IMG/VR virus record: IMGVR_UViG_3300042346_001122
Span: 1-31,118 of that record
Direction: 5' to 3' (one strand)
Length of the DNA stretch: 31,118 nucleotides
From: a virus
The notes under the pieces were generated by a model. It made no database searches. It had not been told where the DNA came from and was given only the letters and a program-made list of their open reading frames with translations. Position numbers and translations under genes: made by a program. This document shows positions 6,135 to 19,310 of the stretch, piece after piece; position 1 is the stretch's first letter, and each line of letters begins with the position of its first letter.

Positions 6135-6701
6135 ATGAGTAAACCTAAAATTACTGAGACAGATATCAGCAAACTAACTCCCGATCCGAATAATGCCCGC
6201 AAAAGAACGCCGTTATCAGCTAAGGTGATTTCCAAATCCTTAGAACAGTTTGGGGCTTGCCGTTCCATTGTTATTGATGAAAATGACGTTATCCGTGCGG
6301 GGAATGGAACCTTTGAGGAAGCGGGTCAACTAGGGATTGAGAAGGTTTTGGTTGTAGAAGCCGATGGTAATACGATTGTTGCTGTTAAGCGTAAAGGGTT
6401 GTCAGAGTCGGATTGGAAACAATATGCGATCGCTGATAATACGGCTTCTGATTTCTCAACATGGGACTTTGATCTATTAAATGATTTAGTTCAGGAAGTT
6501 GATCTGAGTGAGTTTTTCCCTGATTATAAATTAAATGAATTGTTGGAACAGTTGGGCAAGGGTGAAGGGTTTGGCGATACTGAACAGCAAGAGGAAGATG
6601 AGGAATCAAAACCACCAGAAGATTTTAAAGAGTATGACGAAGACATCGAAACAGAACATACTTGTCCTAAGTGTGGTTATAAATGGTCAGGGGGTAAATA
6701 A
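6135..6701 (+). CDS. ParB/Srx-fold protein with C-terminal zinc ribbon
   Basis: A 188-residue protein. Residues 5-125 are a ParB-N domain: ISKLTPDPNNARKR at the N-terminus, then SAKVISKSLEQFGACRSIVI and IRAGNGTFEEAG, the phage version of the ParB box II region. After an acidic linker (about 145-172), the C-terminus has HTCPKCGYKW, a half zinc ribbon with only two cysteines. In phages such proteins often lie next to DNA methylases; a DNA-contacting, scanning or nuclease role in the modification is a guess. The next gene starts directly after its stop, so they are one operon. The cassette is on the opposite strand to the flanking head genes. Confidence 0.75.
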   Translation: MSKPKITETDISKLTPDPNNARKRTPLSAKVISKSLEQFGACRSIVIDENDVIRAGNGTFEEAGQLGIEKVLVVEADGNTIVAVKRKGLSESDWKQYAIADNTASDFSTWDFDLLNDLVQEVDLSEFFPDYKLNELLEQLGKGEGFGDTEQQEEDEESKPPEDFKEYDEDIETEHTCPKCGYKWSGGK

Positions 6702-7772
6702 ATGAATACTAAACCTATTTACCGCGTTCCTCTAATGAAAGAGATAGAAGAAATACCCTGGAATGGGTTTAATGTTGTCTCTACATTTAGCGGAACAGGC
6801 GGATCATGTCTTGGTTATCGGATGGCTGGCTATCGAGTCTTGTGGGCTAATGAATTTATTCCTGCGGCTCAGGATTCTTATAAAGCTAATCATCCAAATT
6901 CAATTCTTGACAGGCGAGATATCCGAGAGATTTCTGCTCAGGACATCTTAACAGCAACCGGATTGAAAATAGGAGAGATAGATATATTTGATGGCTCTCC
7001 CCCTTGTGCAGCTTTTTCAACAGCAGGAAAACGTGAAGCAGGATGGGGAAAAGTTAAGCAATATTCAGATACCAAGCAAAGAGTTGATGATTTGTTTTTT
7101 GAGTACGCTCGACTAATCAAAGGAACACAGCCTAAAGTCTTTGTTGCTGAAAACGTATCAGGATTAATCAAAGGAACAGCTAAAGGCTACTTCTTAGAAA
7201 TCCTTAAAACACTCAAAGATTGCGGTTATAACGTCAAGTGTAAAGTGCTAGATGCTCAATGGCTTGGTGTTCCTCAAATGCGACAACGGACTATCTTTAT
7301 AGGTGTTAGGAATGATTTGAAGTTAGAACCTGTTCACCCAAAACCGTTGCATTATCAGTACACAGTTAGAGATGCTTTACCTTGGATAACTCAGATTAGA
7401 CAAACAGATGTTTTTGTCGAAGCAGAAACCGATATCTCAAAATATGCAATTGGTAGAGAATGGGACAAAATAAAACAAGGCGAAAGTTCAGAGAAGTATT
7501 TTTCTCTGACTAAGCCACACCTAGATAAACCGTCTCCATGCGTCACCCAAATAGGCGGTGACAATACTTGTGCATCGGTAGTTCATCCCACAGAAAAACG
7601 GAAATTTTCAATTCAAGAGTTAAAACGAATTTGCGCTTTTCCTGATGATTTTATTCTAACAGGTTCCTATGCCCAACAATGGGAAAGATTGGGTAGGGCT
7701 GTTCCACCTGTTATGATGTCACATATTGCCAAAACAATTCAATTAGAAATACTAGAAAAATGTGTGGATTAG
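6702..7772 (+). CDS. C5-cytosine DNA methyltransferase, possible carboxymethyltransferase
   Basis: A 356-residue protein with the ordered C5-methyltransferase motifs: I FSGTGG (29-34), IV SPPCAAFS with catalytic Cys102, VI ENV (150-152), VIII QMRQR (192-196) and X LGRAVPPVM (330-338). Motif X normally reads GN(A/S)V; here Asn is replaced by Arg332 (codon agg at 7695-7697). In M.MpeI the equivalent Asn374 changed to Lys is known to allow use of carboxy-SAM instead of SAM, giving 5-carboxymethylcytosine. With a CmoA-like gene two genes downstream, I infer that carboxy-SAM is the natural cofactor. Target sequence is unknown. No restriction gene is adjacent. The gene starts immediately after the ParB-like stop and overlaps the next gene by 13 bases. 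Confidence 0.9.
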   Translation: MNTKPIYRVPLMKEIEEIPWNGFNVVSTFSGTGGSCLGYRMAGYRVLWANEFIPAAQDSYKANHPNSILDRRDIREISAQDILTATGLKIGEIDIFDGSPPCAAFSTAGKREAGWGKVKQYSDTKQRVDDLFFEYARLIKGTQPKVFVAENVSGLIKGTAKGYFLEILKTLKDCGYNVKCKVLDAQWLGVPQMRQRTIFIGVRNDLKLEPVHPKPLHYQYTVRDALPWITQIRQTDVFVEAETDISKYAIGREWDKIKQGESSEKYFSLTKPHLDKPSPCVTQIGGDNTCASVVHPTEKRKFSIQELKRICAFPDDFILTGSYAQQWERLGRAVPPVMMSHIAKTIQLEILEKCVD

Positions 7773-9115
7773 CGGGTACATACAAATCCAGCGTAGATGT
7801 AGAGTCTATGCTTCTTAAAATAATACATAGGGGGCGAGATGGTCAAGGTGTTCACAAGCATGAAGACACTGTTCATGGTCACGTTAGGCTGTCTTTACTT
7901 GATTTAAGTTCGGCATCTAAACAACCTTTTATCTTAAATAATTCCACTCTTTCATTTAATGGTGAGATATGGAATTATAGAGATATAAAAAAGAAGTTAC
8001 AAGACGACGGGTGCAAATTCAATACAACAGGTGACACCGAAGTATTGAGTCAATTTTTAGATATTTACGGTGTTTCACGGCTAAATCAACTAGAGGGAAT
8101 GTTTGCTTTTGTATGGAGTAAAGGGGATGAGCATTGGCTTGTGAGAGACCGTTTTGGTGAGATACCCTTGTATCTGGCAAAAACGAATAAAGGGTATATT
8201 TGGGCATCTGAAAGAAAAGCATTTCCTAGTGGTGTTATGCCTGTTGCCGTTCCTCCGGGCTATGCTTTTAATCTAGTGAAAGGCGAGTGGTTTCAATGGT
8301 ACAAGCTACCAGGAACAACACCACAGCAAAATATATTAGATTGCTTGAATAGGGGTGTAGAACAAAGATTAAATGCTGATACTCCCGTCTGCTGTCTTAT
8401 ATCGGGCGGATTAGATAGCGTCTTGGTTCTGCAAATAGCAAAGTCTATAAACAAAAACATCGTAGCTTTTACAGCAAAAATGCGTAATGATTCAAATGAT
8501 TTACTAGCAGCCAGGAAGATATGTAGTGAGTATGAAATTCAATTAATAGAAGTGCCAGTATCTATTGATTTAGATTCTTTAACTAACGCAGCCAAGGTAA
8601 TAGAAATTAACAGCAAAGCTCAAATAGAGATAGCTTCATTATGTCTACCATTAGCACAAAGGATAAGGGCAGAAGGCTTTAAATCTTGCTTATCTGGTGA
8701 AGCTGCCGACGAGCTTTTTGGTGGTTATGGTAATTTCTGTATTCAGGCATCCAAAAGCACAAATACAGAAGTTATATCTCTTAGAAAAAGTCAATTAGCA
8801 AAAATGGCAAGAGGTAATTTTGTTAGGTGCAATAAGTCTTTTATGTATGGTGGCGTAGAGTGTAGATTGCCTTTTATGGATGTGAAGTTAGTTGAATATG
8901 CCATAAACTTAGACCTCTCGCAATCACCACCAAATAAAAAACTACTGAAATCCGCGTCGGCTAGACTGCTACCTAAATGGGTGATATCCAGGGTTAAGGA
9001 TACTTTTCAAGGTGGTAGTGGTGTGTCCGATTGGACAGAGAAAAATATAGCATCGCCAATAAAATTTTACAACAACGAACTAAAGAAAACTTTTGGATAC
9101 TTACCCAAGGATTAA
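7760..9115 (+). CDS. AsnB-like glutamine-dependent amidotransferase
   Basis: A 451-residue protein, shorter than cellular AsnB (about 510-630). The glutaminase half is intact: nucleophile Cys2 (MCGLAG), HRGRDGQG (23-30), SFNGEIWNY (65-73), TTGDTEV (89-95). The synthetase half has the PP-loop SGGLDS (215-220), LSGEAADELFGGY (311-323) and ECRLPFMD. So it can make ammonia from glutamine and activate a carboxylate with ATP. The stretch where AsnB holds aspartate (TTIRAS in E. coli) reads SKAQIEIAS here, so the substrate may not be aspartate. Between a C5-methyltransferase and a CmoA-like gene, amidation of a carboxymethyl base is the best guess. Starting at 7760 puts Cys in position 2, which decides the start. 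Confidence 0.85.
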   Translation: MCGLAGTYKSSVDVESMLLKIIHRGRDGQGVHKHEDTVHGHVRLSLLDLSSASKQPFILNNSTLSFNGEIWNYRDIKKKLQDDGCKFNTTGDTEVLSQFLDIYGVSRLNQLEGMFAFVWSKGDEHWLVRDRFGEIPLYLAKTNKGYIWASERKAFPSGVMPVAVPPGYAFNLVKGEWFQWYKLPGTTPQQNILDCLNRGVEQRLNADTPVCCLISGGLDSVLVLQIAKSINKNIVAFTAKMRNDSNDLLAARKICSEYEIQLIEVPVSIDLDSLTNAAKVIEINSKAQIEIASLCLPLAQRIRAEGFKSCLSGEAADELFGGYGNFCIQASKSTNTEVISLRKSQLAKMARGNFVRCNKSFMYGGVECRLPFMDVKLVEYAINLDLSQSPPNKKLLKSASARLLPKWVISRVKDTFQGGSGVSDWTEKNIASPIKFYNNELKKTFGYLPKD

Positions 9116-9116
9116 C

Positions 9117-9821
9117 ATGAATAATTATCACGTCCCATCTAAAGATAAATGGGAATTTGACGAATCAGTAACAGACATTTTTGATGATATGTTGGCTCGT
9201 TCAATTCCTCAATACGAGGTAATGAGAGACGCTGTTACCAATATCGCTCGTGAATACATAAAACCCGCCAGTTCTGTCATAGATATTGGATGCTCAAGAG
9301 GTGAGCAGATATCTCGACTAATTCAATCCTATGGGACTAATTGCACCTATTATGGAATCGAAGTTAGTCAACCGATGATTAACGCGAGTAGGGAAAAGTT
9401 TAAGGGTTTTGAATGCGTCAGTTTACATGAATTAGATTTAAGAAAAGATTGGTTAACTCTTAAAAACGTATCCATCACTTTGTCGGTTTTAACTTTACAG
9501 TTTATTCCGATTGAATACAGATTAAGACTACTCAAAAAAATCTATGATTCAACTCGAAAAGGCGGGTGTTTTATTTTAGTTGAAAAAGTTATTGGGGGGT
9601 CTGCTGATATTGACAGTTTATTGACCAATCAGTATTATAACTTAAAACATCAGAATGGTTATTCTATTTATGAGATAGAACGGAAAAGATTAAGCCTAGA
9701 GGGTGTACTTGTTCCGGTAACAGCTAATTGGAATGAAGAAATGCTTAGATTGTCTGGTTTTACTGAGGTTGATTGTTTTTGGCGTTGGATGAACTTTTCT
9801 GGATGGATTGCTGTTAAGTAG
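9117..9821 (+). CDS. CmoA-like carboxy-S-adenosylmethionine synthase
   Basis: I start this at ATG 9117 behind AAGGA, one base after the AsnB-like stop, giving 234 residues; a longer frame opens at 9093 but lacks a site. From memory, it aligns along its whole length with E. coli CmoA: KWEFDESVTDIFDDMLARSI at the N-terminus, SAM-binding DIGCSRGE, VSQPMI, LTLQFIPIEYR, VEKVIGG, NGYSIYEIERKRLSLEGV, and the ending WRWMNFSGWIAVK. CmoA converts SAM and prephenate to carboxy-SAM for tRNA cmo5U34; no CmoB is present here, while a DNA methyltransferase is. The KR in ERKRLSLEGV is conserved in CmoA, which I recall uses an Arg to bind the carboxylate. A plain methyltransferase of the same fold is the alternative. 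Confidence 0.82.
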   Translation: MNNYHVPSKDKWEFDESVTDIFDDMLARSIPQYEVMRDAVTNIAREYIKPASSVIDIGCSRGEQISRLIQSYGTNCTYYGIEVSQPMINASREKFKGFECVSLHELDLRKDWLTLKNVSITLSVLTLQFIPIEYRLRLLKKIYDSTRKGGCFILVEKVIGGSADIDSLLTNQYYNLKHQNGYSIYEIERKRLSLEGVLVPVTANWNEEMLRLSGFTEVDCFWRWMNFSGWIAVK

Positions 9822-9887
9822 AATGAAACTAATGGAAAGATTGCCAGATTAATTAATATTAACTGTGATATAATATTAATAGTAAAT

Positions 9888-18761: not shown

Positions 18762-19310
18762 ATGATTATACAACAACTTTCACTATTTGAAACACAACCC
18801 GTAATTCTTGATTCAAACGAAAATTATACCCCGTCTGATTTGATTGATTTAGTCCATGAGTTTTATGGATTTCCTGAATTAGACCCTTTTAGCTGTGAAC
18901 TTGCCAACCGAACGGTAAAAGCTCAAAAGATATTCACAATTCAAGATGATGGATTTAAACAGAACTGGAGGGCTAAGACACTCTGGTTAAACCCTCCCTA
19001 CAGCGCGGGATTTGTTGAGAAGGTTGTTGATAAATTAATTCAAACCCTGAACGAGACGGAAGCGGAAGCATTCTTGTTAACCAATACTGACAACAGTACA
19101 GCCTGGTATAAAAAGGCTTTGAATCGGTGCGATCGCTTCTGCCTACCCTCAACCCGACTCACATTCTACAGTCCCAAACGGGCGGCGGAAGGAAAAAAAC
19201 AAGACCAAAACAGGTTCTCCCAAACTCTGTTTTATTTTGGATTGCAACCTCAAAGATTTGAGGAAATTTTTGAGGGGTGGGGAACTGTTTGTCAAACTTC
19301 TAAATGGTAG
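18762..19310 (+). CDS. Phage DNA adenine-N6 methyltransferase with N-terminal clamp motif
   Basis: A 182-residue protein of the phage Dam type: short, with SAM-binding part around LDPFSCELAN (40-49) and catalytic NPPYS (77-81) in TLWLNPPYSAGF, followed by VVDKLIQTL and EAFLLTNTDNSTAWY. The first residues read MIIQQLSLFETQ; QLSLF (5-9) fits the bacterial sliding-clamp-binding consensus (QL[SD]LF), so the enzyme may ride on the host beta clamp. Known: phage Dam enzymes protect or mark DNA. Inferred: clamp coupling. Its start codon is about 30 bases after the hairpin at 18695. Confidence 0.8.
   Translation: MIIQQLSLFETQPVILDSNENYTPSDLIDLVHEFYGFPELDPFSCELANRTVKAQKIFTIQDDGFKQNWRAKTLWLNPPYSAGFVEKVVDKLIQTLNETEAEAFLLTNTDNSTAWYKKALNRCDRFCLPSTRLTFYSPKRAAEGKKQDQNRFSQTLFYFGLQPQRFEEIFEGWGTVCQTSKW

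Follow-up and report, generated by a model that had tools for sequence, protein, structure and literature searches.

The CmoA, CmoX and CmoY proteins of Synechococcus phage S-B43 have been described by Yang et al. (Nat Commun, December 2025; PMC12783734). In this system, SpCmoX is a phage cytosine C5-carboxymethyltransferase that moves the carboxymethyl group of carboxy-SAM (Cx-SAM) to cytosine and that has been crystallised with this cofactor (PDB 8yf3). Its Arg350, which stands for Asn304 of M.HhaI, contacts the carboxylate of Cx-SAM; the wild-type enzyme uses only Cx-SAM and refuses SAM, and the R350N variant uses neither cofactor (PMC12783734). SpCmoY is an asparagine synthetase homologue that ligates glycine to give 5gcxmC. 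The same study tallied 5,615 CmoX (defined by SPPC and Arg350), 4,257 CmoA, 2,251 ligases and 1,660 ParBc genes, the latter being reported to adjoin CmoX. It also delineated a second cluster of ligases (A0A7T0Q3R0) with a glutaminase domain, for which glutamine-derived ammonia was suggested as the amine; the glutaminase-type CmoY was insoluble and the amide product has therefore never been seen (PMC12783734).

We analyzed a stretch of 31,118 nucleotides, hereafter the window, from the viral record IMGVR_UViG_3300042346_001122. It contains four adjoining or partly overlapping genes, all on the + strand, that encode a ParB-like protein (6135-6701; phrog_620, E 1e-32), CmoX (6702-7772), CmoY (7760-9115) and CmoA (9093-9821). 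The CmoX and CmoY reading frames overlap by 13 bases. The TTG start of CmoA (9093) overlaps CmoY, and an ATG at 9117, just past the CmoY stop, is equally possible. This cassette is a further, well-supported CmoX-CmoY-CmoA member of the published system type. A first-pass annotation, made from the letters alone, had proposed the use of Cx-SAM; this interpretation is right yet no longer new, the system type being already published (PMC12783734).

The cofactor pocket of CmoX

CmoX, a predicted DNA cytosine C5-carboxymethyltransferase of 356 residues, is a full-length PF00145 C5-methyltransferase (E 1e-59, profile positions 1-323 of 324). The closest solved structure by sequence is that of SpCmoX, 8yf3 (phmmer E 3.5e-72; 42% identity), and this entry, entitled 'DNA cytosine C5-carboxymethyltransferase in complex with Cx-SAM', is also the best PDB fold match of the predicted CmoX model. 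The first-pass annotation had reported that an arginine replaces the near-invariant asparagine of motif X, which reads LGRAVPP. Translation of the ORF and alignment with both 8yf3 and M.HhaI bear this out. Codon 332 is AGG (7695-7697, within ERLGRAVPPVMM), and Arg332 shares its column with Arg350 of SpCmoX, the arginine of ERVGRMVPP in 8yf3, and with Asn304 of M.HhaI, the asparagine of QFGNSV. The AlphaFold model of CmoX (pLDDT 80.5) is poor in the catalytic loop and the recognition region; it is therefore the alignment with 8yf3, not the model, that supports the predicted role of Arg332 in binding the Cx-SAM carboxylate. The same arginine is present in near relatives from independent contigs, hence it is neither a sequencing oddity nor the product of chance. 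The idea that Cx-SAM use could be indicated by a basic residue in motif X together with a neighboring CmoA-like gene is supported by 8yf3 being the closest match both in sequence and in fold.

CmoX possesses S99, P100, P101 and C102 in addition to R332, which corresponds to the SPPC and the arginine at the Arg350 position of the published CmoX definition. The further features of this definition are also found, namely a C5-methyltransferase fold best matched by 8yf3 and adjacent genes for CmoA and an AMP-forming ligase. The other core motifs had been described as intact, and this stands for the catalytic ones but not for the residue that follows the catalytic Cys102. Indeed, in SPPC-A (6996-7010), Ala103 replaces the glutamine observed in every Asn-type methyltransferase sampled (SPPCQ or FPCQ; Gln82 in M.HhaI). 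Judged from the alignment, the cofactor pocket is altered at Ala103 as well as at Arg332.

The motif X asparagine is near-invariant in most C5-methyltransferases, so one would wonder whether its loss reflects decay, CmoX being an inactive methyltransferase kept for DNA binding and the arginine a random loss. Against this, the catalytic Cys, ENV, QxRxR and the other motifs are intact and invariant over 19 homologues, and the arginine is conserved across hundreds of sequences. With all catalytic motifs kept, we rejected general decay, in agreement with the first-pass annotation, and the probability that we give to this explanation is close to nil.

A glutaminase-type CmoY and a CmoA in the same operon

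CmoY is predicted to couple a glutamine amidotransferase to an ATP-dependent amide ligase. A profile search identified GATase_6/7 and Asn_synthase domains, and the best PDB match of the AlphaFold model (pLDDT 85) is 1ct9, AsnB. In the alignment with E. coli AsnB, the glutaminase residues Cys2 (the nucleophile, 7763-7765), Arg43, Asn67, Gly68, Glu69 and Asp92 are kept, as well as, on the ligase side, the ATP pyrophosphate loop SGGLDS (residues 215-220; 8402-8419), Glu314 and Lys413. CmoY thereby displays the class II glutaminase Cys and the SGGxDS ligase domain adjoining CmoX that characterize the glutaminase type. It resembles asparagine synthetase B in its domain order, its glutaminase and ATP residues and its fold, but about 100 C-terminal residues are absent and A-Q-I-E (KAQIE, 8615-8629) is found where AsnB reads TTxR. 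The TTxR motif has been assigned to aspartate and ATP binding (PMC5775275), and Arg325 of asparagine synthetase has been studied by chemical rescue (PMC12018205). Lys286, Gln288 and Glu290 are invariant in an eight-member CmoY set. On TIGR01536, CmoY scores 257.0 bits for a cut-off of 267.1. Loss of the aspartate motif TTxR led us to rule out that CmoY is an asparagine synthetase.

Because CmoY keeps the glutaminase and adenylation residues and has lost the aspartate site, 5-carbamoylmethylcytosine is its likely product, and the likeliest reaction, as predicted from these residues, is a glutamine-dependent amidation of 5-carboxymethylcytosine. Another hypothesis is that CmoX carboxymethylates cytosine but that CmoY uses an amino acid, like SpCmoY with glycine, or some other amine, or that its glutaminase is a relic. 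The synthesis of 5gcxmC by SpCmoY and the variation of the amine site among CmoY homologues (PMC12783734) lend it some weight. However, SpCmoY, a glycine ligase, has no glutaminase domain, whereas in the window CmoY the class II glutaminase is complete, a domain that a glycine ligase does not need, and all the catalytic residues of this domain are kept across relatives 36-95% identical. We consider this hypothesis unlikely and favor amidation.

CmoA, a predicted Cx-SAM synthase, matches TIGR00740 with an E-value of 9e-49 and 166.3 bits, below the NCBIfam equivalog cut-off of 193.3. SpCmoA, which is active, scores 115.6 bits and fails too, so this cut-off does not bound the function. The equivalents of E. 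coli CmoA Tyr39, Asp62, Gly64, Ser66, Asp117 and Arg199 are kept (Y41, D64, D115 and R199 for Tyr39, Asp62, Asp117 and Arg199), and those of Asn132 and Asn90 are not. Arg199 is a carboxylate ligand in E. coli CmoA (PMC3663124); its equivalent lies at 9687-9689, and SpCmoA has a Glu at this position. A Glu is also found there in a short CmoA-like subfamily of about 216 residues encoded beside Arg-type CmoX (L012:7738-8382, L051:7206-7856, L172:5067-5714). We considered and rejected reading such low-scoring neighbors as an absence of CmoA, since the short subfamily matches TIGR00740 with E-values of 1e-14 to 1e-17.

Separately, several viral CmoA genes have long flanks in which no C5-methyltransferase was found (L124:2948-6720, L118:5929-9049, L129:3039-5841, L146:5143-6723 and L149:5384-6699). 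Their neighbors are an N6_N4_Mtase protein (L124), ParB_N proteins of 520-550 residues (L118, L129) or other methyltransferases (L146, L149), and these five loci are possible systems for other carboxymethyl acceptors.

Altogether, we propose with high confidence that the cassette is a phage DNA hypermodification operon in which a carboxymethyl group is put on cytosine via Cx-SAM and then amidated. The family identities, the residues, the operon and the association of the arginine with CmoA are established here by sequence and fold, and published work on the S-B43 enzymes has demonstrated the reactions of CmoA and CmoX and what the arginine does (PMC12783734). We infer the same chemistry for the window CmoX and CmoA. 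CmoA would convert SAM and prephenate into Cx-SAM, whose carboxylate would be held by Arg332 in a CmoX pocket where the motif X Asn became Arg332 and the post-Cys Gln would have become Ala103. CmoX would transfer the carboxymethyl group to the C5 of cytosine at a target that we infer to be set by its own recognition region. CmoY would then adenylate the carboxylate with ATP and amidate it with ammonia from glutamine, released by its N-terminal glutaminase, to give 5-carbamoylmethylcytosine. The DNA modified in this way would resist host restriction, which would be the protective role of the system.

Motif X arginine and CmoA across C5-methyltransferases

Viral contigs were searched with CmoX, CmoA, CmoY, an Asn-type cyanophage methyltransferase, an HhaI-like Arg-type methyltransferase and an Asn-type near relative; additional loci came from genome contigs searched with CmoX (Verrucomicrobiota bins) and from phage records. 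The motif X state was called by profile alignment. The survey gave 243 Arg-type and 21 Asn-type hits, not deduplicated, a ratio that is not a natural frequency because most queries were Arg-type or CmoA, so that only the association is informative. Among the Arg-type hits, 155 stand beside a canonical CmoA-like gene, 81 beside the short form and 7 have neither in the stretch examined; no Asn-type hit is beside CmoA. Of these seven, six are cut by the locus end (among them L001, a fragment of this window), and the seventh, L191, lies where a contig begins. The first-pass annotation had expected the arginine mainly in genomes with a neighboring CmoA-like gene and had named its common occurrence without such a partner as the observation that would count against Cx-SAM use. 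The expected pattern is the one that we found (236/243 against 0/21). When identical ORFs were removed and at least 2.5 kb were available on both sides, a CmoA-like gene accompanied 74/74 Arg-type and 0/11 Asn-type enzymes.

The post-Cys glutamine is replaced along with the motif X asparagine. Identical domains being removed, Gln follows the Cys in 19/19 Asn-type enzymes and in 0/183 readable Arg-type ones, which have Ala or Ser in 180/183. Six control phage methyltransferases of the FPC/SPC kind, added to the set, have both Asn and Gln, with no CmoA annotated in the fetched stretches. The Asn-to-Arg change is confirmed, from independent sequence, as a usable marker of natural Cx-SAM methyltransferases, and the loss of the glutamine after the catalytic Cys supplies a second one.

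Two other observations came from this survey. Bacteroidota phage C5-methyltransferases (L291:3381-4508, L292:3450-4502, L293:3432-4511 and L294:3426-4493) have Met at motif X (IGMSVPP) and Ser after the Cys (SPPCS); both pocket positions are changed in another way, and no CmoA is annotated nearby. CmoX relatives are also present in Verrucomicrobiota genome bins (L278-L284), with several copies in one bin (JAKQDD01), and are probably prophages or phage contigs.

The arginine is also found in enzymes devoid of SPPC. HhaI-like methyltransferases with GFPCA and a motif X Arg stand beside CmoA (L109:4884-5960, L131:4499-5635, L148:1-1143 and L194-L273). This lineage matches M.HhaI best (E 1e-53) and SpCmoX much more distantly (4e-18), and the neighborhoods of its 88 hits revealed neither kind of CmoY. 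In a tree of 72 methyltransferase rows (LG+C20 PMSF), starred branches join the GFPCA Arg enzymes to FPCQ Asn enzymes as sister groups. The tree needs four changes between Arg and other states (those inside the SPPC part being gains or losses), and CmoA presence switches with the Arg/Asn state in all four independent pairs, a number too small for a sign test to reach significance. When all Arg rows are constrained to a single clade, the log-likelihood drops by 219 units (p-AU 0.000125), and a single origin of the arginine is rejected; both trait columns were left in the alignment, a bias towards, not against, one clade. By sequence, the GFPCA enzymes are a probable second carboxymethyltransferase lineage, standing as a whole outside the published set, which cannot contain it because its filter required SPPC together with Arg. 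Another C5-methyltransferase, L133:6702-8141, has YSYPCK and GRG (motif X Arg), overlaps a CmoA gene and is possibly a third lineage.

CmoX could also be thought of as an ordinary SAM-dependent m5C methyltransferase that tolerates an arginine, CmoA serving elsewhere, for example in the cmo5U modification of host tRNA; the CmoA family does normally serve tRNA modification through CmoB (PMC12783734). However, a general survey of the window ORFs brought up none that resembles CmoB, the arginine tracks CmoA in two separate methyltransferase lineages, and the equivalent SpCmoX does not accept SAM (PMC12783734). From the survey and the tree, we judge this explanation very unlikely. Coming back to the carboxymethylation reading, we lean, by a modest degree, towards a broader proposal: that 5-carbamoylmethylcytosine, so far unseen as a natural DNA base, is what the cassette produces, and that C5-methyltransferases switched to Cx-SAM more than once (in the SPPC and the HhaI-like GFPC lineages at the least), always through the same two pocket changes and with the capture of a CmoA.

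Apparent exchange of modules and comparison with known systems

The target-recognition region of CmoX (7378-7631) is variable among close relatives. L007 and L009 are about 97-99.7% identical to the window in nucleotides on both sides of this block, which is itself replaced, and L005, L006 and L029/L030 also differ from the window there. The Arg-type scaffold thus stays constant while its recognition region is swapped. Since this occurs even among near relatives, one should not presume that the window enzyme shares the GC specificity of SpCmoX. Such naturally exchanged regions on one catalytic scaffold could be useful for enzymatic DNA labelling.

The window is syntenic with Planktothrix phage PaV-LD. 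The nucleotide match ends at window position 6598, in the ParB N-terminus, and resumes at 9838, in the anti-repressor. The two phages share these flanks, the first ~147 residues of the ParB-like protein being 75% identical to the PaV-LD protein, but between them PaV-LD encodes a fusion of ParB with an N6_N4_Mtase domain, in the place of the window's ParB and CmoX-CmoY-CmoA. No CmoY or CmoA was found in the PaV-LD genome (tblastn, E 1e-3). Apparently, one DNA-modification module has taken the place of another at a single site, 6598-9838. Elsewhere in the window, a Dam-like N6-adenine methyltransferase (PF05869) is encoded at 18762-19310, and its match in PaV-LD is ORF117R. HIP1 sites (GCGATCGC) number 11 in the window against 0.1 expected, and HIP1 marks cyanobacterial genomes. 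The resemblance to PaV-LD and this excess point to freshwater filamentous cyanobacteria as the likely hosts. We also considered inferring the CmoX target from avoided tetramers. GGCC is found 7 times in the window for 57.8 expected, but it is equally avoided in PaV-LD (NC_016564; 29 for 203), which is without the cassette, and the approach was rejected. Such strong avoidance points to a host that restricts GGCC, whether or not the cassette is present.

To the published account, as covered by the open-licence PMC literature, our analysis adds the post-Cys pocket residue, the lineage without SPPC, the exchange of recognition regions and the PaV-LD module exchange, although an earlier report elsewhere is possible. 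Like S-B43, the window has a CmoA-like protein, a C5-methyltransferase with SPPC and a motif X Arg, and an AMP-forming ligase of the asparagine synthetase superfamily, encoded by adjacent genes in a cyanophage. The gene order differs (CmoA-CmoY-CmoX in S-B43, ParB-CmoX-CmoY-CmoA here), the two CmoX are 42% identical, the target site of the window enzyme is not known to be GC, and the S-B43 CmoY is a 271-residue glycine ligase without glutaminase whereas that of the window is a 451-residue protein of the glutaminase type. For the ligase class whose published representative proved insoluble, this compact cyanophage CmoY offers a new candidate, and its predicted product is explicit.

A parallel can also be drawn with Streptomyces phage TurkishDelight, whose gp121-125 include a ParB, a C5-methyltransferase (57% identical to that of the window), a glutamine amidotransferase-ligase (32%) and a CmoA-like protein in the same order as in the window. 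Its host is different, and its CmoA is divergent, without an equivalent of Arg199. These genes probably represent the second CmoY cluster of the published study (A0A7T0Q3R0; PMC12783734). Finally, the motif X Asn has been changed in engineered enzymes, such as M.MpeI N374K/R, and the variants used with bulky cofactors, M.HhaI Q82A/Y254S/N304A and M.MpeI Q136A/N374A (PMC6009647), also change the post-Cys Gln. At these two pocket positions, where M.HhaI and M.MpeI were altered in the laboratory, the window CmoX has a natural Ala and a natural Arg.
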